NCBI RefSeq assembly: GCF_048128805.1
Contig: NC_136010.1
Location: 15,355,980 to 15,419,979, forward strand
Direction of reading: 5' to 3'
DNA from: Centroberyx gerrardi
Lineage: Eukaryota > Chordata > Actinopteri > Beryciformes > Berycidae
Length of the DNA: 64,000 nt
In this document: positions 5,370 through 60,544 of the stretch, in pieces
Position numbering within the stretch: position 1 is the stretch's first letter
Layout: each line of letters opens with the position of its first letter
The notes under the pieces: generated by a model
The model's input: the letters and a program-made list of their open reading frames with translations, nothing else
What the model was told of the DNA's origin: nothing
Database searches by the model: none
Program-made: the position numbers and the translations under genes

Positions 5370-5380
5370 TGATCTACACA

Positions 5381-22000: not shown

Positions 22001-25000
22001 TCAGGCTGCCAACAAATATGAGCATGAGATTGACAACCTGCAGGGTGACCTTCAGCAACAGAGCAAGCAGTGGCAGAAGACTGCAGAGATACAAGGTACT
22101 ACATGGTGCAAATACACATATTGATACATAACATAATGATAATAGTTGGTGAAAATGACATTTGTGACACAACGGTAATAATTGTAATCATCATAATGTC
22201 TGATATTGTCAATTGCCATATATAAATTAAAGGGATAATTTGCCCTGAAACAAGTATGTACAACTCAAACACAAAATTATAATCCAGATAATCAAGACTT
22301 TAATTCTGGGGTTGCTTCACTGACAGTGAATGAGAGGCTTTCATAGTAGCAGTTAACAGTTTCAAACCAGAAACTTGCATCCCAGAAAAAATATTATTGT
22401 GGGTACCATCAGTTCTAACAAAGTCATTCTCCCACTCCATTTTAGGGGAGCAATTTGAAAAAGTGTTGCTTAATGACCTCACGGTTTAGAGGTATATAGC
22501 TCTTTTGTTTCTAGCTATAAGAGACTAGGCTGTCCAAGATAACAGGAACATGTCAGTGTATTATTATAAATATGTTTTGTTCTGAATCATTCTATGAGCT
22601 GATTCGGATAAGAGTCTCTGCTTAAAACAACAATATAAATGTAAATGACTTTATGCTGTAGTGTCATAATGTACATAAAGCCTTGAATGCTTTCCACAGC
22701 CGGTGAACTGCAGTCCATGCAGAAGGAGTGTAACGGCCTTCAGAAGGAGTGTTCTGCCCTGCGATCTGAAAAACAGGACATTGCGAATAAGCATCAGAAG
22801 GAAAAGAGCAGTCTGCAGAGTGAATGTGCTGCCCTCAGGGTCGAGAAGGAGGAACTCCTCAAGACTCACCAGAAAGAGAGGGGCAACCTGCAGAATGAGG
22901 CCGCCGCCGTGCGCTCCGAGAAAGAGGCAATGCTGAAGAAACAGCAGCAGCTAGAGAAGGACTTCGCCAGGTCAGGGCAAGAGCTCAACTCCACCCCCAC
23001 CTCCCTGCTCCCTCTGTCTCATTTGCTCCACTCTAGCGTCCATTTTGCTGTTTATACCTCACATTGCTCTCACCCTGATCCTCTACCTCCTGAACTCCTT
23101 GTTTTCTTGTGTCTGCTAGTTCACGTGCCCAGAATGATGAGCTGAGCAATAGCCTTAAGGCCCTGGAGAGATCCCAGGAGGAGCTGGAGAAGAGGCTGGG
23201 GGCCCTGAAGCTCCAGCACCAGCAGGACAGTACCAAGCTCCAGACCCAGCTGGATGAGGCGGACAGCCGCACCAAGGACCTGCAGAGAGAGGTAAACTCT
23301 CAAAACAAATCGGCCTCAAGCTAAGGAACCAGATCCTTTATCTGTCTGTCTGGACCAGTTTTCATTTATTCACTGCGCTTGACTTTGTAGTATCTTGAGG
23401 TCATTTCTTTACCAGTACACAGGATTTGATGTTACAATCCTCTGTGCCATAATCCAGGGTGAACATTCATACAGAGGCCTAATTAATTCAAAAGAATAAT
23501 GTACTAACCCACAAATAGTGTTCGTACAGGACATCAGGCTGCAGCATCATAAATCTACAGGACCATCAGACAGGCAGCACCATTCACCAGCCACCTAATC
23601 TAAATGTTACTAGGTTGAGTGTGAGTGTGGGTGTGTCACTGGGGTTATGAAGTGGGCCCCTCGCATCACAGATGTTTTATTGAATACCTCCAGATAGCTC
23701 ACAGTGTATTCCAGCGTCCTGGCGCCACCCTGCTGTGCTGTTCTGCTGTACCACTGCAACCTAAGATCTGAGAGCCTGACCTCTACATGCCCAATCCATC
23801 TGCATTATCAAAAAGAGAGAGAAGTGTGTGTGTGTGTGTGTGTGTGTGGGGCAAAGTGTGGTGTTTGGGTTGGGTTAATGTTATCTAGCCAGATACAAGT
23901 AATAAAAATATATATATATACCAACAGCAAGCATAGTACTAACAAACAAAATATTACATACAAATTTACCACCAATCTAGCAAAACCGATATGCTACCAA
24001 GCCAATTTATGAGCATACTAGCAACCCACTATACAAGCAAATGTATTTCTAACAAACTATATTTGCAAACCTAGTAACATGCCAACATATCAACATGCTA
24101 AGAAATATATACCAGCAATATACCAGCAAACATGCTACCAACAAACAGCCAAAGCAGCCATGCTAACAGCAAACATTGTCAGCTAGCATGCTAAAAGCAA
24201 ACAAAAGCCAACAAGCCAACATAAACAATGCTAAAAAATCAGTATACCAGTATACATACTACCAAAAACCAGCAAGCATGCCACAAACCGTTTTCACCAT
24301 ATAACACTCAAGGGCATTTACTACATCAGCAACTTTGTGCCCCAGTCATTGTGCTTCCTCCTTAGCCAGATCCACACTGAAAAGACACTGAATTGACAAT
24401 GAAATTGACCTTGTGTTGATTTCATATGAAAACTGTAATTTGCTTTATGCAGTATGAGGAGGCTAAGACCGAGCTGTCAGACCTTAAGGAGAAATACGAG
24501 AAGACTGAGCAGGAAAAACAGTCGATCGCAGATGAGCTTCAGGAGTGCCAAGCCAGCATGAAGATTTTACAGGAGAAAGGAACAAAGGTGAGTGCTGTTC
24601 TGTCCGTACAACAGGAAGAAAGAGGCATTCATGTTTCTTAACAAAATCATGTTTTATAAATGTTGTTAAAATATTATTTTAAAAGTCACATTAAGTTTAT
24701 TATAATCCTTCTGTGTTATAAAGTTAAAAACGGCACCATAGCTATTATTGGCATAGGAAGCAAACATCCTCAGTTGTCTTCAGTTTAAGAGCATGAGCTT
24801 TGCTTTCTCAAATTTTGCAACAAGAGCGTACTGAACACCAATTCATTGCGTGAAATATCTTCAGGCATAAAAAAGTGAATCTCTGGATAGATTCACAAGA
24901 ACATTTTTTATCTCGGCACACCTGCTTCCCTCTACTCATCCACGGTCCCATTACTGTTGCTTTTAGACGATGACACAGACTCTTGTGTGACTTTGAGATT

Positions 25001-28375: not shown

Positions 28376-31300
28376 ATGTTTTCCATGGAGAGCCAGTTCT
28401 CCCCAGGTGGACACGGCGTATGTGCCACTGAGTGTAACCTGGCGGACGATGCGCCGTGGAAGAAGATTCAGAAGAACACCTTCACCCGCTGGTGCAATGA
28501 GCACCTGCGCTGTGTGGACAGAGCGATCCATGACCTGCAGTTTGACCTGAACGACGGGCTGACCCTCATCGCCCTTCTGGAGGTGCTGAGCCACAAGAAG
28601 ATGCCCAGGAAATACCACACACGGCCCACCTTCAGGCAGATGAGACTGGACAACGTGTCTGTGGCCCTGGAGTTTCTGGAGCAAGAGAAGATTAAGCTGG
28701 TGTCCATAGGTGAGTCAAAGAGGTCGTACATCCAAACTTGCTGATCTTGCTCTAGAAAAATGCCCAGAGTTCCAGTGTATGGTCCTAGGATTTAGGTGCT
28801 CTTGTAATATTGAGGGAATGACATGGAATCCATAGAGAGTGTTGAAATATTGTCCAGTTTGGTATTAATTTCAACAATTTCCTATTATGTTTTTCTACTG
28901 ACCACTGGAGCTTACATGTCTGTGCTTATAATATCACTGCTATTCTCTCAGTATTTTACATAATATTGCCAGCCGATGCTTTTGCATTTGGGTCAGTTTG
29001 ATGATGGATGGGTGATGTTGCCCCTCCAGATAGCAAGGCCATTGTGGATGGCAACATGAAGCTGATTCTGGGGTTGGTGTGGACTCTGATCCTACACTAC
29101 TCCATCTCCTCCCACCTGCTGGAGGATGGAGAAGCCAAGAAACAGACGCCCGAGCTGCGGCTGCTGGGCTGGATTCAGGGTAAAGTGCCTGAACTGCCCA
29201 TCACCAACTTCAACCAGGACTGGATGGATGGCAAGGCACTGGGAGCCTTGGTGGACGGACTGGCCCCAGGTGAGCTGTTACTGGATCTACTTTATCACAG
29301 CCATAACTAATGATGAGAGAGTCAAGAATAAACAGACCACCAAGAACTATGTTATCATTTAACTGCCTTTTTTCTCATTTTATTTAATAATGGACCTACT
29401 TTGAAATCAGGTTCAGTTTCTCCTGCTGTCTGCCTTAGTTCTCAGTTCCCTAAAGAGACTCAGCACCAGCAGTATTGTACACAGTCTGGTTTAACAGTGA
29501 TGGTCCTCTGGCTGCAGGCCTGTGTCCTGACTGGGAGAGCTGGGACGAGATGCAGCGAGTGGACAACGCCAGAGAGGCCATGCAGCAGGCTGATGAGTGG
29601 CTAGGAGTGCCACAGGTTGGTTCCAGGACGGCTGAGTTTTGCTAAGAACTTACTTCTGTACCCTCTTAGAGGCAAATATAATGAACTAGCAGGGACTGTA
29701 CACGACAATACTCTACACTACCAGGTAGCCTTCCCTGCTAAGGCATACGCAGTATTACTTTTGACCTCTTGGGTTTAAAACTGGGCCATGACTTCTACTG
29801 CTTGTTATTTTCTCTGTCTCTCTCATTCTGTCTACTCTGTTCTATCTAATAAAGCACAAATAGTTTAAAAGTAATCTTAAAAAATCCATACACTCAGAAA
29901 GGCAACACACTTGTGCAAACTACGCATCAGTCAAACCCAGCTGTTTCCTTCTTTTACTCTTTTGTAAGATGTTATGACATATTTCTCAAAAAGGCCTCCT
30001 GGGAAAAGGACTTGGAGTTTACCTCATCATCTCAGTATTTGCCCCAGTATCCAGTCTCAATAACTAGTTTACTTTACTCTTAAAACCTTGCAGAGGGATG
30101 ACATCATGTCACACAGGCAGTTAGATCATCCGAGTTATTGTGACTGCTGGTGACTTCAACTCCTGCTGATCATCGGTAGACACTCTAGGGTTAAGCAGTT
30201 AGCGGAACCGCTCCCTTTGACGACGCTGACCGCACTAATGGGAAGTTTGAGGAGGAGGAGGCACTTTATTTCTCAACAGGATGAGACGTCCGTTGTTATT
30301 GTGTAACGTGTAAGACCTTCAAATTGCATCATTTCCTTAAGGTTATAGCTCCAGAGGAGATCATCGACCCCTGTGTGGATGAGCAGTCCATCATGACCTA
30401 CCTGTCCATGTTCCCCAAAGCCCAACTGAAACCTGGAGCACCCCTCAAACCAAAATCAGGTGTGTGCCTGCAGGCCCAAAGCAAGCCAAATTAGGGTAAA
30501 AATGATATAATTGATTCCGTATCTCATGATTTTAAATTGATGTTTTAAGTCCTTAAATTAATTTAAAATCCATGTATTTGGTATAAGTGAAAGGACAAAT
30601 TCTGATTCTTTCATTCTTTCTACTTGTCTGGTGAATTTAAAAGCAAATTGCAAGTAATTGTAGTTAATCATATATCACTTGGCCCTTGATGATTAGCATA
30701 ATATTATCAAAGGTCTCTTGAAATTCATACATTTTTTATACTATTACATATCACATGAACAGAATGACATCTTAAGGATATGATGATATGGGAGTATGTT
30801 CAAAAATTCACATAAGGTATCATATACTGGGACACTAAATATACCACGGCTGGTCCTGTTTGAATTACGTCAGTGAACTAAATTATGCTATATTATTCTT
30901 GTCTGTAGTTAAAATAGTTTAGTTGAAATGTACCCTAATGCTGACATAAAATTCTCCATATCTATCCACTTAAAACCTCAATATTAAGTCTTCCAGCTCA
31001 CTTGTTTCAGTGTCAAAAGCGAAGGCCTGCAGAGCCAGTGGGCGGGGGCTGCAGCCTGCTGGGGTGAGGGTCGGCCATGTGGCGAGCTTCAAAGTAGATA
31101 CGTCCAGAGCTGGACCCGGGCACCTGGAAGTGCATGTCAGGGGACCAGGTGTGTTTGTTTGTTTGGCTGTTTGGTTGCTTTTTTCTAATGCATATTGGAG
31201 GCAGATTGCATATGTTGCGCGTATTCTACTGCATATTTGTGTGTTTTCTCTACAGATGGCATGGATGTACCTGTTAAACATAAAGAGGACAGCGAAGACT

Positions 31301-34300
31301 TTTATTTTCAGTATGAACCCAACATAGTGGGTAACCACATAATCTCGATCACATGGGGAGGGGAGCACATCTTCAAGAGGTGAGCAGAGAGCCTGGTCAT
31401 GTTCAAACAGTGGCCTTAGGGATGGGACGATGTATTGAAATTCAATACATCGCAATACAAAAATGTGACAATACGTTTTGGGGGGCAGAAAAATGCATCG
31501 CAATATTAGCTACATTTTATTCTGCTGTAGTAATCACAATTTCACAAGCTCTCCATGGAAATTATATTATTTGTACTTTGTAATGACATTTTTAAATGAT
31601 TGTTTACATTCTAACAAGCCAATGCCGTCACTAGAAGGATTAGTGGCCCAGAAATAAACATAATTCTGCACAGTCATACTTGGTTATTTGTTATTTGTTA
31701 CATCGTATCGTGGCTGTATCGAATCGTGAACCCCATATCACGTACCGAGTCGTATCATGAGATAAGGATATTGTCCCATCCCTAGGCTTTACATTTGGTA
31801 GATGTGGTGAATGTAACTTTATTAATTCTAATGTTTTTAGAATGGTCTCCATGAACACAGCCCCGCTCAGTTTTAGTTGTTTCCTTTTTGTGTTGACAGC
31901 CCATTTGAGGTCGGGGTCGGTCCAAAAGCAGGCCCTCAGATGATCCGGGCGTGGGGTCCAGGACTGGAGCATGGTGTTGTGGAAATGTCAGCTGACTTTA
32001 TAGTGGAATCTGTCGGCGCTACTGCAGGGATGCTGGGTAGGAGACACAGACTGTTGAATGGCGAGATCACTGTTAAAGTCAATTGGATAGGTACAAAGTA
32101 TACAGTCCAGAAAACACTGGACTTAGAAGGAGACAGAAGGAGGGATAAAAGGATCGGCATTGTCATTTCTGTTCTGCAGGCTTTGCCATCGAGGGCCCCT
32201 CCCAGGCTCGGATCGAATGTGATGACCAGGACGATGGGTCATGTGACGTGAGGTTCTGGCCTACAAAACCTGGGGAATACGCCGTGCATGTGACGTGTGA
32301 CGACGAGGAGATTGAGGACAGTCCCTTCGTGTCCTATATAAACCCAAATAAGAAGGAATGCTACCCACACAAGGCGAGTCGGTGCCTCTCTGCAGAGTTG
32401 CTGTGTCCATTTATTCTGCTCTATTTTGCATCTAGGTCATCTGTAGTGGACCAGGCAAGGATGCAGCAGAGTGGCAGCTCTACACTGTGGTGGATTGTAT
32501 TTACAGTGTAATCTTGGGCTTTATATATTCCTAATTCACATTCTGATTAAGATATCCCTGTTTAATGTGAATGTCTATAACAATTTAAACCCATTTCATA
32601 AATAACAACACAGTAAATAGCATGGACTTTTGTAGAAGAACTCTACTAGAAAGGAATTGAAATAGGTTACTCCAGTGATCATGTACAGATCAGCAAATAT
32701 TTGATGATAAACAGCTCTCTCCCAAAACTAAATCCGCAAAACCAAGATGATATCATGTACTTTCAAGTGCTCGTGCTACACTGACGATGTATGGGGAGCT
32801 GACTATGCAGACTTAAAGAATGTGTATTTGAGCTTGTGTATGTAAACAAATTTTAATCAGTAGTTGTTCAACAGTCCTGAACCAGAAAATCACCCTTGCT
32901 GCTGTCACAGTGTACAGAGTCAGTCTCTTATTCATTGTCAGTGGAGCAGCTCCAGGAAGTGTCGCCTGATGGCATCAGAGACAAGGATCTAGACTCCCTT
33001 ATCTCTGGCTTGAAGAGAAATTTGTTTACACAAAACTGCCCAACAACATAACATGAATGAATTTTAGGGCGTGCCCTCAGTTCATTTATTGTTTTTATTA
33101 TGTTTTAGGTGAAAGTCTTTGGAATGGGAGAGAGTCAGGAAGGCTTCATTTTAAACAGATTGATGGAGTTCACAGTAGATGCCAGGTTTGCTGGAGATGG
33201 ATCACTGGGCATCCAGGCTCAGGTAAAACTAACACACACACACACACACACTGAACTGGCCTGGGTGGAGCATATGGACAGAAATAATGTACAGAAGTAA
33301 TGAGACAAATATCAGGCACCTTCCACACATATACTATAATCCAGAATTTACTCTAGTAATACTTCATTATAATATACTTGTTATGTTGTATTAAGTTTGT
33401 GAAGTGTTATATATCATCCTACTCTGTAACCCATAGAACATCGAGGGGAAGCCTGTCAGTGTGGATGTGAAGTGTAAACAGCCTGGCCTGTACACCTGTT
33501 TCTACACACCCACCTCTCTGGTCAAACACACCGTCTTTGTAACCTGGGGAGGGGTCGGTGTGCCTGGCAGCCCCTTCAGAGTGAGTCCTCACCTCACACA
33601 TTTATGGACACATTCTGCTTAGTGTTTTTAAAAGACCTAGTAAAGATATGAAGCTCTTTAATAATAGTAATAATCCACAGCATTTTGATATAAATATATG
33701 TCAGTTTTGCTACTTGCTATTGTAAACTGATATAACACAATATCGACTGAACCTATAGCCAGTTCATAAACGCTTTTACATTTGCTGTTCTAAACACCTG
33801 GTGTAGGGTGGGTCTTTCCAGTAGCAGCAACAGCGGTTTGTTTGGAATAAATAGAAGAAGAAGTGGCTAGTTAGCATGAGCAGCAATAGCCAACATGGTT
33901 GAACTGGCAAAGAAAGGACCAGTAGCTACAGAAACTCAAAATCCAGTAATACAGTAAAATACAGTGCTGGCCACACTGTTTAATAGCCAAATGATCAAAG
34001 CAAAAACACCACAGTGATAGCCGCGTATCACAAAAGATGACGGCAAAATATTAATATAGAATAATATAGAAGATTTTGAGGATTACCACTTTAAATACAT
34101 GCCAACATAAACTGTGCAGGTAGTTGTTTGTTTAAAATATCTATTTTTTGCTCTAGGTAACCCCTGGAAGAATTAAATTTGAGCCTTCATGCAACACCTC
34201 AAACATCAAGACTCAAGGGTCAGATCACAACGGTGAGGTGGATTTTCACACGATATCCTCCATCTTCAGTCTACTCTTCAAGCATAAATTGTCATTGTGA

Positions 34301-37300
34301 TGGATAGATAATATGAGAGAAGGAAAATATGTACGCTTTTGAATGCTGTGGGTATCTGTAGTACTGTTTGAACAATACAATCCTACCCCACTACTATGTT
34401 GCATGTTGTAGAGAAGAGGACATCAGCCTGGATCTTGCCAAAAGCACAGACAAAATCCTGACGTTTTGCTGGAACATGAACATAGAAAGTGAATGAAGAG
34501 ATTCTAAAGAGATTCTATTTTCCACTACTATGTTGCATGTTGTAGGAGAGGGTATCGGCCTGGATCTTGCCAAAAGCACTAATTCTCTGTTCAAGCTTGA
34601 TTTGAATGTCACCAGTCCTGAAAATGTGCCAGCTGATGCCAACAAGGTATGGCAATAGCTACACACACACACATGCACACATATATACAGAATATCTATG
34701 TTCAGTTTTGATCAGTTCAGTTCTCTCTGCTCAGGTCACGGCTTACGGCCCGGGTCTAGAAGGTGGATTTGTTGGGACCCTCGCCGACTTCATCATCGAC
34801 ACAAACGACTCCGGCAGCGGTCAGCTCTCTGTGACAGTGGACGGTCCCGGCCCCGCCAAAATACAGTGCTCTGATAACCAGGACGGTAGCTGCACAGTGA
34901 CGTATCTACCAGTGGAAAATGGAGAACACCTGATCAACATTGTCTTCCAGGGAGTACACATCCCAGGCTCCCCGTTCCACGCTGACATCCAGATGCCCTT
35001 CGATCCCGCCAAGGTGGTCGTATCTGGGCCTGGGCTGAAGAGGGGCAAAGTCGGGGAGCCTTGTGTTGTGAATATCGACTGTGGCTCGGCCGGGTTCGGT
35101 GAGCTGTCAGTAGAGGCGGTGTCCGAAACTGGACAAAAGGCCAAGACAGAGGTTCAGAAAAATAAAGATGGCACCTGCACAGTTGTCTATGTGCCTCTCA
35201 CCGCTGGCGTCTACACACTCCGATTGAAGTATGGAGGAAAAGTGCTGGCTAACATTCCCTCTGAGGTGATAGTGGATCCTGCTGTTTGCACCAGCCGGGT
35301 GAAACTCTGCGGGAGTGGAGCTGATGGTGGAGGTAAGGTTGTGTGTCTCATGACCACATATAGAGTAATACTACAGTTCAGCTGTTCAGGTTTTATTTGA
35401 GGAGTTTGGATCATCCACAGTATGCTTATTGCTGGCATGTATGCAGGAGATGCAGGAGAACTAAAGGGTTTTGAAGGAGAACAGAAAGCAGCGTCAGTCT
35501 TTGCCAGCGGGACTGGACTCCTTCAGGGACTAACAGGGGAGAGAAACCATTTTACTATCACAGCGAGGTAAGACAGAAGGCCTTCCATGTTTCACATCAG
35601 CCTCATTAGTCTGCAGACAAAATGACGTTTTGTTTTAAGAGAAACAAAGCGAATGAAGAGTTTCAAACTATTTTCCACAGAAGTGGCGGAGCAGGAGGCG
35701 TAGCTGTCACTGTGGAGGGACCATCGGATGCCAAAGTGTCCTGCACAGACCGTAATGATGGCCGTTACGATGTGCAGTACACCCCCAGTGTACCAGGACT
35801 CTATCAGGTCAACATCACCTCTGGAGGGGAACACATTGAAGGTAAGGCTTTAAAGATTCAGTTCTTCTTGAGTATCTGAGATATTTGGATCAAGTATTCA
35901 ATATGTGTCAATTCTAATTCTTCATCTAAATCAAGGAAGCCCCTTCAAGGTGCCAGTGAAGGAAGTCTCTGATAAAAGCGACGTCAAAATCTCTGGTCCA
36001 GGACTGGAATCAGGAGTCTGCACCCAAATCCCTCAGACCTTCACTATTGACTGCAGCAAGACTGGAAATGCCCTACAGTCTGTGGCTGTTATGACACCCA
36101 GTGGTAAGTCAAAGCACTCAACATTAAGATATTTTCTGAGTGGTTCATTGTTGTGGCTCAAATCATTGTGTTTATATTGTTTTTTTTAGGGAAAATAGAG
36201 CTTGTTGATGTGAAAGACACTGGGGATGGAACGTACTCTTTGGTTTACTGTCCTTCTATGGAGGGTGATCACTCTCTGGTGGTCAAATATGCTGAAGAAG
36301 AGGCATTTTCCAGGTAACATGTCATTTATGTAAAAATAATTTTGGGTTCAACAAAGCAGGGAAGTATCAGATAGAATGATTTATTACCATTAATTTATTT
36401 CACCTGTCTCTTATCTTTCTCATACATCAAAGCCCATTTGCCTTCCGAGTGCTGCCAAATAAAAGTACCAACAAGTTGAAAGCATCAGAACCAGGACTGG
36501 AATCAGGAGTCGGTGCCCAAATCCCGCAGACCTTCACTAGAGGCTGTAAGACAGGAGAAGCTCCAGAGACGATGAGCTCATCATTCATCAAATTATACAA
36601 TTTCACTCTTTCTCTTTTACTTTTTACTAAGAGATCATTTTCATATTTTGTTGATCTGGCCAGGTGAAATAGACCCTGCTGATGTGACAGACAACGCAGA
36701 TGGGACTTTCTCAGCAGCCTGCTCTCCTGATGATGATGATGATGATGATGCCAACAAGCTGAAAGTGTTGGGTCCAGGTCTTTGTGCCAAAGTTCCCCAG
36801 ACTTTCACTATAGACTGTTCCAAGACAGGGAGAGTCCCAGAGTCTGTGGCTGTTAAGACACCCAATGGTGGGTATTATCATGTACCTTCTAGATTTTAGT
36901 TCTGATTTTGTACTATTCCAATATTCAGAAGGAAACGGAATGTGCACAATGTGATGAAAACATGTTTTTAATGGTCAGGTGACATGGAGCTGGTTGAGGT
37001 GACAGACAGTGGAGACGGGACATACTCAGTGGTTTACTGTCCCACTGTGGAAGGTGCTCACCATCTGGTGGTCAAACATGATGATGGAGAGGAGTTTTGT
37101 AGGTGAGAATAAGAGGGCTAATGATAGATTTCATAAGCAAAACACATACCATAAACCATTATTGCAATATTTTTGTTGTAGATATCTATTTACTCACTTA
37201 TTTGTTTCTTTTTTCACTTATTGATTGATGGTTGCATTGATTCATGCAGGCCCTTAAACTTCCAAGTTTGTCCCGTCAGTGATGCCAACAGGCTGAAAGT

Positions 37301-38703
37301 TTCTGGTCCAGGACTGGAATCGGGACTTTGTGCCCCAGAGTCTGTGCCTGTTATAACACCAAATGGTAATATTATTCATTTGTCGGGATATTACACGTAG
37401 TTATTTCCTCATTGGTGGTTTTATTTGCATTGTATCGGTAGTTTTGTTAACTGCCCTGTGACCTCATTCAGGTAACATGGAGCTTGTTGAGGTGACAAAC
37501 AACAGAGTCGGGACAAACTCACCTCTCTCTGTGGAAGGCGATCATTCTTCGGTGGTCAGATATGCTGATGGAGATGAATATGTTAGGTAGATTTTCACTT
37601 AATTTTTTTTAACAAATTAGAAATATTTCAGCAGCTTTATCTGTAGGTTATTTAGTTCTATATTTTAGATGATTTCTTTATTTTTACTTTGCTGTAAAGT
37701 GTTTATTGTGAATGTCATTTTTTGTGTGTCATCATCGTTATCATCATGTTACCTGTGTTACCAAGTGATTCCAGTAGAAAGGTGAAAGTTTCAGTACCTG
37801 GACTGGAATCAGAAGTCTGCGCCCAAATCCCTCAGACCTTCACTATTGGCTGCAGCAAGACTGGAGACGCCCCGCAGTCTGTGGCTGTTATGACACCCAG
37901 TGGCAAGTTTTAGAAGAAGCACCTTGAGCAAAACTTGATTATTTTCATGTCTGAAGTGAAATTTCCGGCTGTGTGTGAAGTTATCTGATTGAATCTGCCT
38001 CATCCTGTCTTATCAACAGGCACTATGGAGATTGTTAAAGTAACTGACAATGGAGATGGGACATATTCAGTAGCGTACTCTCCTTCTGCGGAGGGTGCTC
38101 ACTCTCTGAAAGTCAAATATGCTGATGAAGCAGAGTTTAGCAAGTATGGCTCATAAACACTTTCAGTGCAGCTTAATCTGTAGCTACATGTTTAATTTGT
38201 TAATAAAGTTAAGGTTATTAAAATGGTGTTCTTTCACTGCCTTTCAGTCTCTCCAACTTCCAAGTCCTGCCCACCAATGATGCCAACAAGCTGAAAGTCT
38301 CTGGTCCAGGACTGGAGTCAGGACTTTGTGTTAAAGTTCCTCAATCTTTCACTATTGACTGCAGCAAGACTGGAGAAGCCCCAGAGTCTGTGGCTGTCAT
38401 GACACCAAATGGTGAGAATAATGTCAAGAAATGAAAGCTGTTAAGTATGTTTTGTTTGTCGGTTTTTTCTTTTAATGATGGTTTCCACATTGTTTCTTTG
38501 CTTCAAACAGGCCACATGGAGCTGGTTGAGGTGACAGACAATGGAGACGGGATATACTCAGTGGTTTACTCTCCCTCTGTGGAAGGTGCTCACCATCTGG
38601 TCGTCAAATATGCTGATGAAGAGGAGTTTCAGAGGTAGAATCTATTCACATTTTTAAAAACTATTTGAGGTTTATTAGAGTTCCTCACATACATTTTTGA
38701 TTG

Positions 38704-38735
<32 letters not shown>

Positions 38736-41700
38736 CATTAAAGTGGCCTCTAATGTTTGTTTCAGCCCTTACCAGTTCCAGGTGTTGCCAAGTGATTCCA
38801 GTAAAAAGATGAAAGTATCAGTGCCAGGACTGGAATCAGGAGTCTGCATGGAAATCCCTCACACCTTCATCACTGACTGTGGAAAGGATGGAAACGCCCC
38901 AGACTCTGTTGCTATCATGACACCCAGTGGTAGGCTATTTAATTTTTTTAATCTTTTAGCGTCTCAGTATATTTCACATAAATAAGAGACATCTGTGTAG
39001 TATTAATACATATGATGTTTTTGTCCTTGAATGTCAACAGGTAATATCAGTATTGTTGATATAGCTGACAGTAGAGCTGGAACATACTCAGCACCCTACT
39101 CTCCTTTTATGGAGGGTGCTCACTGTTTGGCAGTGAAATGCGCTGATGAAGATGACTTTACCAGGTAGGCTCAGACAAAAAAAATAATGCTGCTTAATGT
39201 TCTTAATTTGGAAGGCAGAATTTAAAAATTTGGGAATTTTTGAGAATAGTTGAAATGTGGTCTAGCAATTTGAGGAGAGGTGACACATTCAACAGAAAAC
39301 ATGACAGAATGGATAGAATATGACTGAAAAATGCAACAAAAATATATTCTCTCTATGATCGAGGGATTTCAGATTTATAATCTTCATCAAAAGTTGCGTG
39401 AAAATTTTGCATTTTTGAACTATGAGTACCATAGCTCTTCCAGTCTATAAAATGTAAATTTGGGAAACAGTTATCATCATAATCAATGCAAAATGTTGCA
39501 TTTCAGTTTCTCCAATTTCCAAGTGCTGCACGCCAATGATGTCAAAACGCTTAAAGTTTCTGGTCCAGGACTGGAGTCAGGACTTTGTGCCAAAGCTCCT
39601 CAGACCTTCACTATTGACTGCAGTGAAACTGGAGAGACTCCAGAGTCTGTGGCTGTTATGACACCAAGCGGTAAGAGACATATAACATCAGTATGTATTC
39701 ATATTTTAATGAGAGTGTCCTCATAGTTTGTTTGACTCATCCAGGCCACATGGAGCTGGTTGAGGTGACAGACAATGGAGACGGGACATACTCAGTGGTT
39801 TACTCTCCCTCTGTGGAAGGTGCGCACCATCTGGTGGTCAAATATGCTGAAGAAAATGAGTTTTGCAGGTAAATATTTAATTAATAATTTATATATCAGT
39901 TCATGTATTTTTCCTATACAGATTTTGGAGTTTGGGGATTTGGATATTTTAATGTAATTCTTGACAAAAGAGTCTAATCTCATGTTTGTTTCAGTCCTTA
40001 CCCGTTTCAAGTGTTACCAAGTGATTCCAGTAAAAAGATGAAAGTTTCAGTACCAGGACTGGATTCAGGAGTCTGCGCCCAAATTCCTCAGACCTTCACT
40101 ATTGGCTGCAGCAAGACTGGAGACGCCCCGCAGTCTGCAGCTGTTATGACACCCAGTGGTACGCATGCTTAAAATCAGTTTTTATTCTTTTGTGATGTGA
40201 AATATTTGTGAGCTGTCAGTATTTTCTGTATAACAGGTAAAATGGAGCTTGTGGATGTAACAGACAATGGGGATGGCACATATTCAGTGGCCTTCTGTCC
40301 ATCCATGGAGGGAGCTTACTCTATTATGGTGACATACGGTGATGAAGAGGACTTTTGCAAGTAAGATTTTTTTTATTCATATGTAATGCACACTGAACTA
40401 GAAGGTAAATGCACAGGCAGTAACTTAACCCTAAGCTAAGGGAGTTATAATGGTGTTTTTCACTGCCTTTCAGTCTCTCAAACTTCCAAGTCCTACCCAT
40501 CAATGATGGCAGCAAGCTGGAAGTCTCTGGTCCAGGACTGGAGTCAGGACTTTGTGTTAAAGCTCCTCAGATCTTCACTATTGACTGCAGCAAGACTGGA
40601 GACACCCCAGAGTTTGTGGCTGTCATGACACCAAATGGTACAAATAGTATTTGAACGGGTCATGTGAACTGCTTTCAAGGACTCTGAAGTCGTTTTATTG
40701 TCCATTTCTGTCATTATTTGTTTTCTTCACCCAGGTACAATGGAGCTTGTCGAAGTGACAGATAATGGACATGGGACTTTCTCAGTGGCCTACTCACCTC
40801 ATATGGAAGGTGCTCACTCTCTGGTGGTTAAATATGCTGACAGAGATGAGTTTTGCAGGTGAGTGACATGTTAGATTAAGTTAAATCCCAATAAAATCCA
40901 ACTTAATTACAGCCTTATGATTTGAAGTAACAGGTTATTTTCATACAGTCCCTACGACTTCCATGTTCTGCCCACCAATGACGCCAATAAGAAAGAAATG
41001 GAGTCAGGACTTGGTGTCAAAGTCTCAAACGGTAATATGTTTTTTATATATGATTTGATCTATTCATAAACTGTAGTTATGACTTGTAACTGTTCATGTT
41101 TATTATTCGTATTGTTGAACCAGGTAAGATGGAGCTTGCTGAGGTAATGGACATTGGAGATGAGAAATACTCTCTCTCCATCGAAGGTTCCCCCTTTCTG
41201 TTCAAATACACTGATGAAGAGGAGTTTTGCAGGTAAATTTCTTTATCTTAATTTAAAAAAAAATAGAATTGCTGGATTGTCCAATTGAATGTACATATCT
41301 GCACTTAAGACTTTGAACTGTTAACTGGTATTATTTTCTTCAGCCCTCACTGCTTTCAAACATTGCCACATGATTCCAGTAGAAAGTTGAAAGTTTCAGT
41401 ACCAGGACTGGAATCAGGAGTCTGCGCCCAAATCCCCCAGACCTTCACTATTGGCTGCAGCAAGACTGGAGACGCCCCGCAGTCTGTGGCTGTTATGACA
41501 CCCACAGGTACGTGATTGATTAAGAATGATTAAATCCACAAAGGTAGAGGATTTCCTGATCATGTCTTTTGATATCACTTGAAATCATACCTTTATTATT
41601 AATATTAACATAGAATATATATGCATTAATGACATATAATACTATATTCAGGTGAAATGGAGCTTTTGAAAGTGACCGACATTGGGAATGGGGCCTATTC

Positions 41701-44700
41701 TGTGGCCTATGCCCCTTCTATGGATGGTGCTCATTCAATCATGGTTAAATATACTGAAGAAGATGACTTCAGCAGGTATCTATTAAAATTATACATGATA
41801 ATTTATAGAAATATGCTTTTTATAATATAGAATTATAGTCTATATTATAGTATATAAACAATACAAATGATTTGTTTTGATTGCAAAAATTCCAGTTCCA
41901 GCTTCAAACGATGTTGAGTTATTTACTTTTTCTCAGTTTATCCAACTTCCAAGTGCTGCCAACCAATGATGATAAAAAGCTGAAAGTCTCAGGTCCAGGA
42001 CTGGAGTCAGGACTTTGTGCCAAGTGTCCTCAGACCTTCACTATTGACTGCAGCAAGACAGGAGAGGTCCCAGAGTCTGTGGCTGTGATGACTCCAAGTG
42101 GTGAGAATATGGTTACACAACATTTTAAATTCCCCTTTTTAATTTATCCATTCAATAGGGTTACTATTTCTGTGTTGTTTCTATCCAAGCAACTCAGATT
42201 GATGTTCATAATTTACTCATTCTTTAAATGATTCAGGTAAGATGGAGCTGGTTGAGGTGACAGACAATGGAGACGGGACATACTCATTGAGCTACTCTCC
42301 CTCTGTGGAAGGTGCTCACTCTCTGCTGGTCAAATATGCCGATGAAGAGGAGTTTTGCAGGTACACCTTTAGCTGAAAGTGGCCATGTTGGTATAGGCTA
42401 TTACAGTTTCATTTGGTCTCCACTAATATACTGTATGTTGGATTTTTTTCCCCCTACAGCCCTTACAACTTTCATGTTCTACCCAGCAGTGATACAAGTA
42501 AGCTAAGAGGTTCTGGTTCAGATGTGGAGTCCAAACCTTGTGCTAAAGTCCCTCAGACCTTCACTATAGACTGTAGCAAGACAGGAGAGGCTCCAGAGTC
42601 TGTGGCTATGGTGATGCCAAATGGTAATGGATTACATCAGTTATTCAAATTGCAACCTAAAACTTACTGGTGTATATTTTAACTCAAAGTTTTTGCTATT
42701 GAAACTGTTTAGGAAAGGTTGAACTCGTAGAGGTGAGAGACTGTGGAGATGGGAAATACTCAGTGGCATGGTCACCTGCTATGGATGGATCTCATTCTCT
42801 TGTGGTCAAATATGCAGATGAAGATGAGTATCGCTGGTGAGAATATGTTTTGGTTTTTTTTTAGATAAGATATATTCGAACATGACATTTTAGATCCTTC
42901 ATCACACATGTCCTGTTTACTTTTCTTGTTTTGCAGTCCCTTTCGATTGCATGTGCTGTCCAGCCATGACGCCCATAAAGTTCGGGTCAGCGGTCCTGGG
43001 CTGCTGCCCGGTCTCCCTGCCAGCTTGCCTGCACACTTTACTGTGGATACCGCTGAGGCAGGGGAGGGTCAGCTGTCAGTGGAGATCGTTGTGAGTTATT
43101 TTGTTGTTTGTATGTTCCAACATTCACATTTCTCGATTCCACTTGGATCGTCTGTGTTTTTTTCCATCCTGTGTTTCGTTAACGTCAGTTTCACCTCAGG
43201 ATCCGGATGGAAGATCAAAAAGACCCAGAATCCATGATAATTGCGATGGCACCTATGACGTGTCCTATGTTCCCGACAAAGTGGGAGACTACAAGATTAC
43301 TATTGAATACAGCGGAGATGAGATTCCTACATCACCCTACCACGTCTGGGCTATTGCAACAGGAGACGCCAACAAGTGCATCGTTACAGGTGTGAGGTGT
43401 TATTGTCAAGCGCTCAAAACTTTTAAAGCATTCAAACTACCGTATTAAACCAAACGAAGAAACCAACTTTCTTCATTTGTCTTTCCCAAGGTCCTGAGTT
43501 AGGCTCCATTGTTGGTGCAGGGGAGGAGATTGTGTTTGTGGTGAACACTCAGTCTGCGGGCGTGGGGAAGGTCTCCTGTTTTGTTCTGACCCCGGACGGG
43601 ACTGAGGTGGAGGCAGATGTCACTGAGAGGGAGGATGGGACCTTTGAGATCTGCTATACAACCGCTCAGCCAGGGAGCTACATCATATCAGCGAGCTTCG
43701 GAGGCGAGAGCCTGTTCACTTGGCCCTTTGAGGTCATGGGGAGAGACGTATGTTGGTTGTCCCTTCTCTCAATCAAGGACAAGTTTCCATTATTTAAAAC
43801 ATAAATATACAAGACCATTAATTTTTACACTTCATGCTTGATATCTTTTGTCAGGTTGTTTTTGTTTGATACTGTATCTTTGGCTTTTTATGTGGATGAA
43901 GGCACAAGATGACAGTTTTGAAATGAACCGTGATGGTCGGGTGTCCAAGTCTAGGCATGAAGCTTCATCCGGAGATGGTTTCCAGCCTGTGGTATGAACA
44001 CAGTTTCACAGAATAAAGACTGTGAATTATAACTATAATATTTCACTTTGGATGTGTTCTCAAGGGAGATTTTTTACCATCCTCTGTTACCTACCTCTAA
44101 TCTACCTAATCCCTCTCATTTTGTAGATGAAGCATGGCTCTTACATTCCCCTAAGAAGTGTGGACCAACAAAACGGCCTGACGATATTTAACATCGTTAT
44201 GGCTTGGGGCTTGGATGATGGAGAAATAACAGGTGTGAAACTAAACTAAACTAAGCATTTTAAATTTTTTGTTGTTTATTGGTCTGTACATCTTGGATTG
44301 GTTTTGGGGTCTCAAACTGTATTTTTTAGGAGAAGTCCACATGCCGTCAGGAAGTAGGGCGCAAGCTGAGGTGACTGATAACAGAGACGGAACGGCCACT
44401 TTAATGTATGAACCCACAGAGGAAGGCTTGCATCAAATACACATCAAAGTCAATGGTGCCACTGTGTCAGGTAAAACTGCAAAAAAATAGATTCTTGTAG
44501 TTTGACCAAAACAACTTCACTTGGACTACACAGTAACATAGTAGATATTCAGGACATGTTTGTATGTTTTGAGAGTACAATGTTCTATTATTTAATTTTA
44601 CTGTTTCAGAAAGCCCTCTCCAGTTCTATGTGAACAACACTAGCAAGAGGGAGCTGATGGCACATGGGCCAGGTCTTGTGTATGGCACTTCCAATGACAT

Positions 44701-47111
44701 TGCAGCCTTCACAATCTTCAACAAAGACTTATTACAGGGTAAGAGAATCTCACTGAAGACCCCTTAAGCTACACTGAGGCTGAGAAAAATGCAGATTCAA
44801 AAAAATATTTGCCAAAATAACACATTATACGTCTGCATCGTTAATCAGGTGACTTGGATATAGCTCTTGAGGGTCCGTCTAAAGCCGAAATCCGGTGCTT
44901 GAACAACAGAGATGGTACCTGCACTGTCACTTATCTCCCCACTGTGCCTGGAGCCTACAATATCTTTGTCCGCTACAATGATGAGGATATCACAGGCAGT
45001 CCCTTCACTGCAAAGATAGCTGGTATGTAGATGATGCATCGGTTGAGAGATTGCATGGGATTACCACTGACTCTAAGCATAACATTGTTTAATGGGTTGT
45101 TTATTGGTACAAGCAATTCCTCTGGTAAAAGCTGACTTCACCTTTATGAACCTTAGGACCCAGTGCTGAGGCTCAACTTGACCCGACCCAGCTGAGGTCC
45201 CAGGTGAGGTTTGGCAAAGGAGCAGACGTCACCTTGGACATCACAGAGGAAGACGTCAGCCTGCTCAGCGTTAGCATCATGTCTCCCTCAGGACGGGACG
45301 TGTCCTGCCTGCTCAAGAGGCAGCCGGACAGACACATAGGTGACAATACAAAGCCTAAATCTATCACTGGATCTTCATATTAGAAGATTACATTTAACTG
45401 TCTCTTTCCTTCTGCTGTTTAGGTATTTCTTTCATTCCTAAAGAGGTTGGAGAACATCTTGTGAGTGTCTTGAAGAACGACGAGCATGTGGCCAATAGTC
45501 CCATTCCTCTCACCATCAATCTGTTAGAGATTGGAGATGCCAGTCAGGTCAAAGTGTTTGGTCCGGGTCTAGCAAAAGGATTCACATGTGAGATGTCAGA
45601 TTTTGTGGTGGACACACGAGAGGCAGGCAAGTTTCTCTGTTTTTTCAGTGCTACAATCAATACTGTACTGCTTGAGTTACACTCCCAGAAAAGGAAGAAC
45701 TGACTTAATACATCTTGAGCAGGTTATGGCGGTCTAAGTTTGGCTATTGAGGGGCCCAGTAATGTGGAGATCCAGACAGAGGAGTTGGAGGATGGAACCT
45801 GTGGTGTGTCTTTCTGCCCAACAGAGGCTGGAACATACACAGTTTCTGTCAAATTTACAGATGAACATGTGCCAGGTACGGTGTGCAGAGATCCTCTATA
45901 GGGTCGCGGTTAGACGCTAACATCATTCAGGTTAAAGGATCGATTTTTAAAACCGTATACACTAAAGGTATTGTACGAGGTGTTGGATACATGTGTCCGC
46001 TGAATGACATGTCAGATAAAACCCAGTCTGAGATAATTCAAATGTTTCTTCATGAGTAGTCTGACATATTTTTAAAAAGAGGGGCCGAATTGTTGATTAA
46101 TTTGAACATTGAGGAAGGAAAGATGTCCAAAAGGTTCCTCTTACTCTGTGAAACCCACATTCTCAATTCCTCAAACAGTTTTTAGAAACTCTATGCTTCA
46201 GCTGTGCCTTTGATCCCATCAGGGAGCCCTTTCTCAGTGCTGGTGACAGAAAGTGACCATGTGACAGAGAGCAGAACTCATTGCCAGGGAGCTGCTGTTG
46301 TTGCCAACGTGGGGAAAACATGTGGGATCAACCTCAAAAAAACAGGTACAACAGCTCTCTAACTCAGCCTCCACCACATCTGATCAAACATCTATGGCAT
46401 CAGACATCTTCAAGACTTTACTGTATGGATTTATGCACATGTTGTTGAATTTATGCTGCAAAATACGACTACACTGATAGAGCTTTTTTATGATTTTGTT
46501 TTTTCATGATGGTATATTTATTTTGGCCTTAGCCAGGAGAATATGCACTGCAAATTGTTTATCTTCAGAAACTACAGTTATGATCTTCCATGACCACAGA
46601 TCATCAGATGAGTGGACTAAACATGTCAGCAGAAGGTGTCAGCAGAGTTTCTCCTCCATGGCCCTCCTTCCTGTCTGATGCCTCCAAGGTTGCCAGCAGC
46701 GGCCAAGGCCTGAAAACGGCCTTCATCGGGAAGACAAACATCTTCACTGTGGACTGCAGCAAAGCTGGTGAGCTCGTTTTATAGGACACAATGTTACAAA
46801 AATATATTTGGTGTTATTAGACTTCTGAAAAGGAAGCAACTTGCAATTTTGCCACTGTAATTTTCCTTGTTACATGAACCCATACAGCTCTAATTTTGTA
46901 ACTGATGTTATTTCTCTCTCCAGGCACAAACCTCCTGCTGGTGGGTATGCACGGCCCTACCATCCCTTGTGAGCAGGTGTCAATCAAACACCTTGGCAAC
47001 AACCACTATGATATCAGTTATGTGGTCAAGGAGAAGGGCAGCTATATCCTGGCAGTGAAGTGGGGAGAAGAGCATATTCCTGGATCTCCTTTCCATGTCT
47101 TTGTTCCATAA
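28376..47111 (+). CDS. flnb: Filamin B-like protein with rearranged, expanded rod
   Basis: Actin cross-linker and scaffold of the cytoskeleton. First exons (28376-28709, 29030-29269, 29518-29615, 30342-30459) encode CH1 and CH2, including the actin-binding [19 protein letters not shown] segment. Rod exons follow: 31011, 31256, 31900, 32180 (repeats 3-4), 33109, 33437 (repeat 5), 34157, 34546 (linker), 34735-35332 (repeats 9-10), 35447 and 35681 (repeat 12). Twenty-seven exons of repeat-13 type (35936-42836) come next. Then 42937 and 43200 (repeat 14), 43491 (15), 43902 and 44127 (hinge 1), 44330 to 45875 (16-19), 46223 (start of 20), 46600 and 46924-47111 (hinge 2 and repeat 24, ending [10 protein letters not shown]). 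All phases join to about 2,892 residues. Repeats 1-2, 6-8, most of 11 and most of 20 through 23 are absent. ATG 28385 is an alternative start. Neighbours slmap and abhd6 support flnb. Confidence 0.88.
31417..31784. mobile_element. hAT-like MITE in filamin intron
   Basis: The ends are inverted: TAGGGATGGGACGAT at the left and ATTGTCCCATCCCTA at the right, with ATCG-rich subterminal repeats inside. This pattern is familiar from non-autonomous hAT-type elements in fish. It is 368 bp without coding capacity, and an 8-bp target duplication is not clear. It lies between filamin exons 31256-31379 and 31900-32036. Confidence 0.7.
33230..33250. repeat. (CA)n microsatellite in filamin intron
   Basis: A short CA run just downstream of the donor of exon 33109-33222. 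Confidence 0.9.
34393..34460 (+). pseudogene. Decayed duplicate of a filamin exon
   Basis: The acceptor and first half of exon 34546-34646 recur about 134 bases upstream. CTACTATGTTGCATGTTGTAG precedes both, followed in both by a CCTGGATCTTGCCAAAAGCA block. In the upstream copy the reading frame and 3' half no longer match and no good donor follows, so it looks like a dead tandem exon copy that could still compete for splicing. Confidence 0.65.
36728..36750 (+). repeat. (GAT)n codon repeat encoding a poly-Asp run
   Basis: About seven GAT codons lie in frame at the junction where exon B of unit 2 is fused to exon A of unit 3, giving an aspartate run inside a filamin repeat. Confidence 0.85.
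38709..38736. repeat. Poly(T) tract in filamin intron
   Basis: About 27 T residues lie upstream of the acceptor of exon A of unit 7 (38766). Confidence 0.95.
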
Positions 47112-52831: not shown

Positions 52832-53798
52832 ATGGATAATGGAGACTGGGGCCATAGGGTAAGAGATGGTTCAAAGTCAGTCCAGAGTAAGAGCAATGTC
52901 AGATGTTGCTGCTATAGAAATGTTTGTTGATTATCAGTATAGAATATATACACTAAGTGTGTGGTTTATTTTTGTTTAATGTGTCTACATCCCAGTAGTA
53001 ATTTATACTGTTCATAGTATAGACTAGAATTGTTATATGCAAATGATAATTTCCTTTTTCCTTATGCAAACTTGTGATTCTTATCCTCCTCTCTGCTCTC
53101 TTTTGTTGTAGATGACTAATCCTGTCACCTTGAACGTGGGAGGTCACCTTTATACCACCAGCTTATCAACCCTGCAGCGCTATCCAGACTCCATGCTGGG
53201 TGCCATGTTCCGGGGAGATTTCCCCACAACCCGCGACTCCCAGGGGAATTACTTCATTGATCGCGACGGGACACTTTTCCGGTACATCCTGAACTTCCTG
53301 CGGACATCTGAGCTCACTCTTCCTCTGGACTTCACAGAGACGGACCTCCTGAGGAAAGAGGCAGACTTCTACCAGATTGAGCCTCTGATCCAGTGCCTTA
53401 ATGATCCCAAGCCGCTGTACCCTCCTGACATCTTCGAGCAGGTAGTGGAACTGTCCAGCACACGGAAACTGTCAAAGTACTCAAACCCAGTGGCTGTTAT
53501 CATCACTCAGCTGACCATAACCACGAAGGTACACGCCCTGCTGGAGGGGATTTCCAACAACTTCACGAAGTGGAACAAACACATGATGGACACTAGAGAC
53601 TGCCAGGTGTCTTTCACCTTCGGACCATGTGACTATCATCAAGAGGTGTCCCTCAGAGTTCACCTGATGGACTACATCATGAAACAAGGCTTCACCATTC
53701 GGAACACACGTGTGCATCACATGAGCGAGCGTGCAAACGAGAACACAGTGGAGCATCACTGGACTTTCTGTAGGCCGGCGTTCAAAGTTGAAGACTGA
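52832..53798 (+). CDS. kctd6: BTB/POZ protein KCTD6
   Basis: Substrate adaptor for cullin-3 ubiquitin ligases; the mammalian protein targets HDAC1 in Hedgehog signalling and small ankyrin-1 in muscle. Two coding exons: a 27-base exon (52832-52858, MDNGDWGHR) and a long exon (53112-53798), giving 237 residues, the same length as the human protein, which begins MDNGDWGYMMTDPVTLN. The T1-type BTB domain (about residues 12-110) includes VTLNVGGHLYTTS, YPDSMLGAMF and GNYFIDRDGTLFRYILNFLR. The C-terminal half (TKWNKHMMDTRDCQVSFTFG) is nearly identical to mammalian KCTD6 as I recall it. A start at 53112 would lose only nine residues. Its position downstream of abhd6 agrees with human 3p14. Confidence 0.96.
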
Positions 53799-58894: not shown

Positions 58895-60544
58895 TCAGTG
58901 GTATTTTCCAATAGGGAGAGTCCGCAGACAGATGAAGCTGTTGGGGTGCTGAGCCAGCAAGAGCGGGTTTCCATCCAGTCTCACCTCTTCCATGTTGCTT
59001 CGGATGTAGTGAGTGTTGTTGCCTCTGCAGAATGTCTCATCTGTTAGTGTGGTGATGTTGTTGTTCTGCGGCCAGAGGAGACAAAATTAGCTCATGAACT
59101 ATTTACTAAATGCAATGCAAAAAAAATCATCATCATTATGCGTTATCCCAGTGCATTTACAGAGCTTTTCTGAGGAATTTAGTTCAATATGTCGATTGCA
59201 GTGAAGTAAAGATGAACTTACATTTAGGTGCACAGTGTGAATAGACTCTGGAAGTTGTGGTATTGCTTCCAGTTGGTTGTTTCCAAGGTATAGATATGCC
59301 AGTCTTGTGAGTTTCTGCAACAACACAAGAACACACAGGCCACTTCAGGTGAGGCTGCTTACTCAGTCTAACATCTAAACATGTTGAACTGCATTCAAGG
59401 TAAGTTTTGCAACTATCGCTAAGACTGAATAGGTTTCATTGTATGTCAGAACATTAGCACAAGATCACTGGACTGACTCCCTGGCTTACTTTAAAAGCAC
59501 TTGACTTGACACCCTGGGTTTTAAGCTTGTTGAAATTGGCATTCAATGAGATTAGTTTGGTAGGCAGCATGGGAAGTTTAGTCAGTCTGTTCTCTGCCAG
59601 AGTGAGCTCCTCCAGATTGGGAAGTTTTGAAAAAGCCCCGTCTTCTATCTCAGTGATCAGGTTCCCAGTCAGGTCAATTCTTTTTAACGTGGCTGGAAAA
59701 AGTCAAAACAAATGAAGAGCAGAATTAGTTGAAGACTCGAAATGTCAGAATTTGCCCCTAGTGTCATCTGTGTATATAATTTTTTAAAAACTATCAGTGC
59801 AGCATTGAATTAGACTTCTATTTACCCATGTCTGCAAAGTCCTTGTTCTTTATTTTGGTGATTTTGTTGAAGCGTGCATACAGATAGGCTGTTTCCTTTG
59901 GCAGTGCCGGGACGTTTGACATTTCGGGGGACACCTCCTCACAGTAAACAGATCCAGTCAGGCAAACGCACAGTAGGCATGTTGGCAGCTCTGAAATCAA
60001 CACATTGTTTCCCTCCATTTCATCTAGAATTAAATGCTTTTCTTACCTATGTTGTGAATCAGTCAAGTAATTAGTCTCATTGCTGTTACTTTGAAACCTA
60101 AAACACACTACATGCACATTGGAAGAGGACACTTGAACGGCCCTGTTATTACATAATGTGGGCTTTAGCTACATTCACAAAAATGTGGAAGAATGCCTCA
60201 GCAAACGTTGCATAATCAGCTTTGAAAATGCATCCGATTGTTGAAAACTATTTATCAGTGCAAACAAACATTACCATCAGCTTTTGGAGCCACTGCCGAG
60301 TCAGTGTCCGAGTCTCCATAGTCAGAAATGGACACGTCTGTCTGTAGAAAGAAAGAGTCTTAACAACACTTGACAGATATAATTATCTTCCAAGCTTAGA
60401 CTGTGTAGTGCAACTCCAACAGATACATATCTTTTTTTTTTTTACCTTGGGTTTTCTTGCTTCCATGTATTCACTTTTCGCTGCAGAAGATAGCATCCAT
60501 GGGAGCATTACAATCGTGAAAATCAAAGTCCTCAAGTGCACCAT
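58895..60544 (-). CDS. ogn: Osteoglycin / mimecan, small leucine-rich proteoglycan
   Basis: Secreted class III small leucine-rich proteoglycan of the extracellular matrix, involved in collagen fibril organisation. Six coding exons on the minus strand: 60544-60446, 60341-60275, 59990-59826, 59692-59490, 59314-59222, 59065-58895. They join in phase to 265 residues; the human protein has 298. The first exon gives a signal peptide ([16 protein letters not shown]). Then come an acidic stretch with one Tyr ([10 protein letters not shown]), the N-terminal cysteine cluster [16 protein letters not shown], about seven LRRs ([47 protein letters not shown]) and the C-terminal [20 protein letters not shown] ear with its cysteine. 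Teleosts have more than one ogn copy and I cannot say which this is. Confidence 0.94.

Follow-up and report, generated by a model that had tools for sequence, protein, structure and literature searches.

The window analysed here, a 64,000-nucleotide (nt) stretch of Centroberyx gerrardi DNA (contig C14, 15355980-15419979, in a genome of 779 Mb), contains one filamin gene at window positions 28385-47111 on the forward strand, in which a single immunoglobulin (Ig)-like repeat, repeat 13 (R13), is present in about fourteen two-exon units. With one repeat multiplied about fourteen-fold and about ten others lost, the protein looks as if it had been remade around this single module. Taken as a whole, the evidence is probably best explained by a gene-duplicate copy (ohnolog) of FLNB that carries an array of hybrid cassettes, has lost several of its repeats and acts as a structural cross-linker.

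The repeat 13 array

Direct repeats at 34-45 kb form families mostly of 10-12 diverged copies, which lie in register over 35924-42861. At the exon level, the array (35936-42836) comprises 14 copies of a first-half exon (A) and 14 of a second-half exon (B), fragments counted, which confirms the estimate of about fourteen two-exon copies in an earlier note on this DNA. Its 27 exons account for 44.6% of the coding sequence (3712 of 8322 nt), so the share of roughly 40 percent given there was right. Nine of the 14 units (1, 6, 7, 8, 9, 10, 12, 13 and 14) are intact in both exons; the other five are shortened or damaged, a point the earlier note omitted. The units, all on the forward strand, are as follows.

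35936-36103 (A, 168 nt, phase 1 to 1) and 36190-36313 (B, 124 nt, phase 1 to 2), forward: unit 1, the original R13
36433-37102, forward: units 2 and 3, damaged; A2 36433-36545, fused B2/A3 exon 36664-36867, B3 36979-37102 intact
37250-37365 (A, 48 nt shorter) and 37472-37586 (B, 9 nt shorter), forward: unit 4, shortened in frame
37775-37902 (A as modelled, normal acceptor lost, GC donor) and 38020-38143 (B, intact), forward: unit 5, class beta
38248-38634, forward: unit 6, class alpha, intact
38766-39164, forward: unit 7, class beta, intact
39507-39868, forward: unit 8, class alpha, intact
39995-40360, forward: unit 9, class beta, intact
40474-40858, forward: unit 10, class alpha, intact
40949-41031 (A, 81 nt shorter) and 41124-41232 (B, 15 nt shorter), forward: unit 11, shortened in frame
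41344-41775, forward: unit 12, class beta, intact
41937-42360, forward: unit 13, class alpha, intact
42460-42836, forward: unit 14, intact, grouping basally with class alpha (support 82/80)

The two classes were recovered in a tree of the units, beta comprising units 5, 7, 9 and 12 (96/92) and alpha comprising units 6, 8, 10 and 13 (91/86). Alpha units share 81% amino acid identity on average and beta units 68%, against 62% between the classes (four units each). Contrary to the earlier claim, the copies are not near-identical, and the two classes tend to alternate along the array. Units 2 and 3 are fused: the normal donor of A2 is lost, and fragments of B2 and A3 lie in one exon. A GAT run at 36729-36749, encoding seven consecutive aspartates at the intronless B2/A3 fusion, suggests a microsatellite at the fusion point. 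Within the A exons (35936-42623), two cysteines are invariant in all nine intact units. The first aligns with an arginine in all four R13 copies of the other filamin genes (register set by eye), and this may be a trait of the module that is particular to the present gene.

Identity of the amplified repeat

That the gene is a filamin is supported by its actin-binding domain (ABD) and filamin repeats, and the assignment of the amplified repeat to number 13 is supported by both position and phylogeny. Five filamin genes, encoding actin cross-linkers of the cytoskeleton, were found in the genome, the present gene and four paralogs referred to by contig as C4, C24, C14b and C5; judged by sequence features, C5 is presumably FLNB, C14b FLNA, and C4 and C24 FLNC. 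Each of the four paralogs has a single R13 followed by repeat 14 (R14), and the present array is likewise flanked by repeat 12 (R12; 35447-35841) and R14 (42937-43389), which places it at position 13. In a unit tree of 19 rows (ten units, four R13 and five R14; units 2, 3, 4 and 11 left out), the ten units and the paralog R13 split from R14 at 100/100, the ten units grouped together (86/88), and the nine internal units were nested among them (91/86) with unit 1 basal. These ten units thus fall with R13 and not with R14. Similarly, the 3' part of the unit was closer to R13 than to R14 in 9/9 intact units, and an array of mixed repeats is ruled out by this result together with the placement of the ten tree units. 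Scored by single domains, unit 13 matched the FLNB entry 2dj4 best in the PDB (82.5 bits, versus 66.3 for the top-scoring domain of FLNC chain 7p0e). This entry is taken to be the 13th repeat of FLNB, and the fold of an array unit would follow from homology to it.

Hybrid first exons and origin of the cassette

The R13 A exon is separate, 168 nt long and in phase 1 to 1 in C24, C14b and C5 and is fused to the preceding R12 exon in C4. For the B exon, the end phase is 2 in the cleanly modelled C4, C24 and C14b (the automatic C5 model overran that donor). Unit 1 matches these genes in exon length and phase, its A exon being as in C24, C14b and C5 and its B exon as in C4, C24 and C14b. Plain duplication of the exon pair is ruled out as the source of the array: because B ends in phase 2 and A starts in phase 1, a bare A-B copy would shift the reading frame. 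In the eight intact internal units, the A exon has a length of 164 nt rather than 168 nt and starts in phase 2, like the first exon of R14. By BLOSUM score, the first 17 residues were closer to R14 than to R13 in all eight of these and likewise in unit 4 (identity alone gave a tie for unit 8), while the 5' end of unit 1 scored closer to R13 and the unit is R13-like throughout. At the DNA level, the 5' 51 nt of 9/9 internal units compared (all but units 2, 3, 5 and 11) were nearer to R14 than to R13 of C5, and in comparison with the gene's own two exons R14 won six times, tied twice and lost once to R13. By these sequence comparisons, each internal unit tested is a hybrid with an R14-like 5' end and an R13 remainder. 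The earlier reading of the array as plain R13 therefore stands for the 3' part and not for the first 17 residues of the tested internal units, where the likeness to R14 had been missed. In C4, an FLNC-type paralog, the fused exon spans 11745076-11745404 of contig C4 (329 nt) and lacks the repeat 12/13 intron of C24, C14b and C5.

The R14-like 5' end makes the exon pair phase-symmetric. The simplest account of the hybrid would be unequal crossing-over between R14 and R13 within their homologous first exons, with gene conversion as a possible alternative. Such a crossover would have created a phase-symmetric (2,2) two-exon cassette that could be freely added or lost thereafter. Later copies alternate between two classes, as though duplicated pairwise; most units show purifying selection, and a few erode in frame. 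This suggests a route by which a crossover within exons gets past the splice-phase barrier and creates a duplicable cassette.

Coding constraint

Nonsynonymous divergence (dN) was lower than synonymous divergence (dS) in all 36 pairs of the nine intact A+B units (units 2-5 and 11 left out), with a median ratio of 0.33. The same direction was seen in 35 of 36 pairs for A alone and in 49 of 55 pairs among eleven B exons (B3 and B5 added). Given a dS of at least 0.28 even for the most similar intact copies, the array would be old, provided that gene conversion has not distorted the estimate. Differences between array units by codon position were 0.213, 0.199 and 0.391, the third position being highest. 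No stop codon was observed against 9.4 expected in a neutral simulation, a rough one in which the consensus was taken as ancestor, and zero stops occurred in 1 of 5000 runs. Together with the open 53-exon gene model, these results support the earlier note's view that the array appears translated.

The net length changes in units 4 and 11 (-48, -9, -81 and -15 nt) are multiples of 3 in 4/4 cases; the pairwise aligner split those of unit 11 and also opened small, mutually compensating gaps in three intact A exons of normal length. The statement that phases are kept throughout holds in the model, subject to two GC donors in the gene and to atypical places at A2/B2-A3 and A5.

Gene model and remaining repeats

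The gene model, which was built with a small spliced gene-finder and translated comparison against the genome's other four filamin loci and then hand-corrected against these paralogs, runs from an ATG at 28385 to a stop ending at 47111 and comprises 53 exons encoding 2773 amino acids, with no internal stop and no frameshift. Introns are GT-AG, apart from the two GC donors after 32373 and 37902 (GCGAGT in canonical repeat 4 and GCAAGT in array unit 5). The R12 exon and a hinge exon, too short in the automatic model, were corrected against the paralogs, and two stretches (32447-32489 and 37506-37586) were dropped as chance exons on the same comparison. The paralog models themselves are automatic and uncorrected, with read-through stretches and chance exons, and selected exons only were used from them. 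The features outside the array, all on the forward strand, are as follows.

28385-28709, 29030-29269, 29518-29615 and 30342-30459, forward: actin-binding domain with two CH domains (two Pfam CH stretches; PDB 3fer)
31011-33580, forward: repeats 3, 4 and 5, matched exon by exon to the paralogs; the exon of repeat 4 has a GC donor after 32373
34735-35332, forward: repeats 9 and 10 in a single 598-nt exon, equal in length (598 nt) to that of paralog C24
35447-35567 and 35681-35841, forward: repeat 12
42937-45875, forward: repeats 14-19, including hinge 1 as a short exon (44127-44232); seven Pfam filamin stretches from R14 to the end
42937-43389, forward: repeat 14
46223-46345, forward: repeat 20 stub
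46633-46767 and 46924-47111 (including the stop), forward: hinge 2 and repeat 24, by homology to the last paralog exons

The encoded protein has the general organisation of a filamin. An N-terminal ABD with two CH domains was identified by Pfam, its best PDB match being the FLNB ABD 3fer (395 bits), and is followed by a series of filamin-type Ig repeats, with 24 Pfam filamin stretches in total (six before the array, eleven within it and seven after it, the protein being scanned in three parts). The C-terminal dimerisation repeat (24) is present by homology of exons 46633-47111 to the last paralog exons. By exon correspondence with the paralogs, repeats 1, 2, 6-8, 11 (main exon), most of 20, and 21-23 were not found in the gene, and those that remain (3, 4, 5, 9, 10, 12, 14-19 and 24) are in order. 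The vertebrate layout of 24 repeats, one copy each, in two rods with hinges is thus not retained, as R13 occurs in 14 units and ten repeats are not found or reduced to a stub. The earlier account was in this respect incomplete: with about ten canonical repeats missing, this is not an ordinary filamin with an insertion.

Probable origin as an FLNB duplicate and gene neighbourhood

The gene is most likely a second, fast-evolving FLNB copy derived from the teleost genome duplication, to judge from its grouping and its neighbours. In a five-leaf filamin tree, which had no outgroup and from which the first repeat 24 exon and the two R13 exons were excluded and some exon ends re-cut, the present gene and C5 were separated from the rest at 99.8/100, with a branch of 0.50 versus 0.165 for C5. 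Grouping with FLNB rather than FLNA or FLNC was thus found in this tree and, by a small margin, for the ABD. The C5 filamin lies at 34.79-34.85 Mb. The only other genome match of the ABHD6-like neighbour (a name supported by PDB 7ots, 144 bits) is on C5 at 35.78 Mb, and the best other match of the KCTD-like neighbour is also on C5, at 36.04 Mb, both within 1.3 Mb of the filamin. As expected of an ohnolog pair, these neighbours are shared between two chromosomes. The C5 gene has one R13 between R12 and R14, in a stretch without N, so that the exons are amplified in one copy only. The names KCTD6 and SLMAP and the gene order around human FLNB are assumed here.

The KCTD-like gene (53112-53795) is one open frame in the window, while its C5 relative matches in four pieces, and the two copies may differ in exon structure. 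Directly upstream of the filamin gene are coiled-coil-like exons (21789-24638), which we take, as a guess, to be SLMAP; a search with one of them (21789-22121) gave no close second copy in the genome. A NACHT-domain (NLR-like) reading frame also lies upstream of the filamin gene (5333-6985), and further exons around it encode an intermediate-filament (Filament) domain (2272-2550), a TLC domain (10867-11094) and leucine-rich repeats (59457-59702).

Predicted function and alternative explanations

The protein would still dimerise through repeat 24 and bind actin through its two CH domains. Rod 1 would consist for the most part of one module in series, and rod 2 would lack the 20-21 pair as well as repeats 21 and 23, which bind ligands. 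As the earlier note proposed, the array might also multiply one partner-binding face. Since the array sits inside the repeat 9-15 stretch and repeats 21 and 23 and the 20-21 pair are missing, a structural cross-linker with a reduced signalling end is favoured; repeats 4, 9, 12, 17 and 19 remain. We infer that its role is mainly structural, cross-linking or spacing F-actin, with a rod 1 that is uniform and with fewer signalling contacts. It is conceivable, as a tentative extension, that the protein is a near-homopolymeric actin cross-linker, its rod refilled by the R14/R13 cassette in step with the loss of ligand-binding repeats. The total would then have stayed at about 24 under selection on rod length, and the number of units may vary by splicing or between species, which would make the length of this filamin tunable.

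Several observations weigh against parts of this explanation. On splice-site scores based on consensus frequencies, the new donor of A2 scores low (0.4), and the A exon of unit 5, without its normal acceptor, has in-frame candidates scoring -0.3 (37700), -0.8 (37775) and 1.3 (37856, deep in the exon). The two classes alternate in 6/6 adjacent pairs among units 5-13, which is marginal on shuffling (p 0.058) and leaves unit 11 unclassed. Whole-chain PDB scores favour a two-repeat FLNC chain over FLNB 2dj4, both for unit 13 (7p0e, 91.7 versus 83.0) and for unit 1 (86.6 versus 80.0), and the ABD scores of FLNB entries (380-395) and FLNA entries (372-383) overlap. Of the fetched C5 region, 32.5 kb reads N, so the two copies were compared only in part. 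Finally, rapid evolution and ten missing repeats could mark a gene on its way out. As a full alternative, a decaying ohnolog, a second FLNB copy that is losing function and whose array expanded under weak constraint, would account for the ten canonical repeats not found, the damage to 5/14 units, the branch three times that of C5 and the two atypical places in the array. However, the 53-exon model is free of stops and frameshifts, the dN/dS ratio is about 0.33 and stays close to this even in the close pairs 6-13 (0.35) and 6-8 (0.32), the absence of stops was matched in just 1/5000 neutral simulations, and 4/4 length changes are multiples of 3, and decay is considered distinctly unlikely.

Titin offers a comparison for length tuned by splicing, and a filamin in which alternative splicing varies the number of units, and with it rod length, in a somewhat titin-like manner would be consistent with A-B cassettes in phase 2-2 and B-A pairs in phase 1-1, which make whole internal units skippable in frame, and with the atypical splice sites at units 2 and 5, which could make some units optional. 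However, the phase symmetry is already a consequence of duplication and the exons of intact units are flanked by AG and GT, and this alternative is judged unlikely. For a mis-joined or falsely expanded normal R13 in the assembly, the repetitive nature of the array is the one point in favour. Intact units differ from their consensus at 9-24% of sites, with dS between pairs of 0.28 to 1.72; introns (11 A-B and 10 B-A compared) show similarity in one pair only, over 42 nt; and outside the gene, matches to unit 6 are at most 55% identical among the matches listed (at least 38). An assembly artefact is rejected on these grounds as extremely improbable, and the array is not a product of chance either.

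Comparison with known systems

To our knowledge, vertebrate filamins are regarded as fixed in how many repeats they have and in what order. The literature searched, which did not take in most subscription papers, gave no vertebrate filamin in which a repeat is multiplied, and to that extent the earlier note's statement that none has been described is upheld. Filamins have 24 repeats in human, and 20 in the worm (FLN-1) and the fly (cheerio) (PMC3143143). For the filamins of the leech Hirudo medicinalis and of Trichoplax adhaerens, lineage-specific repeat expansions are reported (Light et al. 2012, as cited in PMC8275333); these resemble the present gene in lineage-specific multiplication of repeats but differ in being from invertebrates.

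Compared with vertebrate FLNB and the four other filamins of the same genome, the gene is alike in its ABD, which is of FLNB type, in the order of repeats 3-5, 9, 10, 12-19 and 24, and in the exon boundaries around R13 and R14; its ABHD6-like and KCTD-like neighbours also have copies on the C5 chromosome. In contrast, R13 occurs here in 14 units, with hybrid first exons in the internal ones tested, ten repeats are not found or reduced to a stub, and the branch is about three times that of C5. The super-repeats of titin and nebulin have a regular higher-order period; here, the alternation of classes (6/6 adjacent pairs, p 0.058, unit 11 unclassed) is marginal. With one repeat multiplied and several docking repeats removed, the gene looks like a natural experiment that could test the contribution of rod length versus individual repeats in actin networks.

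A close parallel is piccolo b of teleosts, in which a zinc-finger exon is present in 8-16 copies in one of two gene copies, unequal crossover between exons was proposed as the cause, and the author was aware in 2012 of no other extensive domain amplification in one of two teleost ohnologs (PMC3484663). The two cases are alike in that one ohnolog amplifies a domain-coding exon and differ in that the unit is a single-exon zinc finger in piccolo b and a two-exon Ig-type repeat here. Following piccolo b, the present gene looks like another instance in which one copy of a fish gene has multiplied a domain and the sister copy keeps it single.

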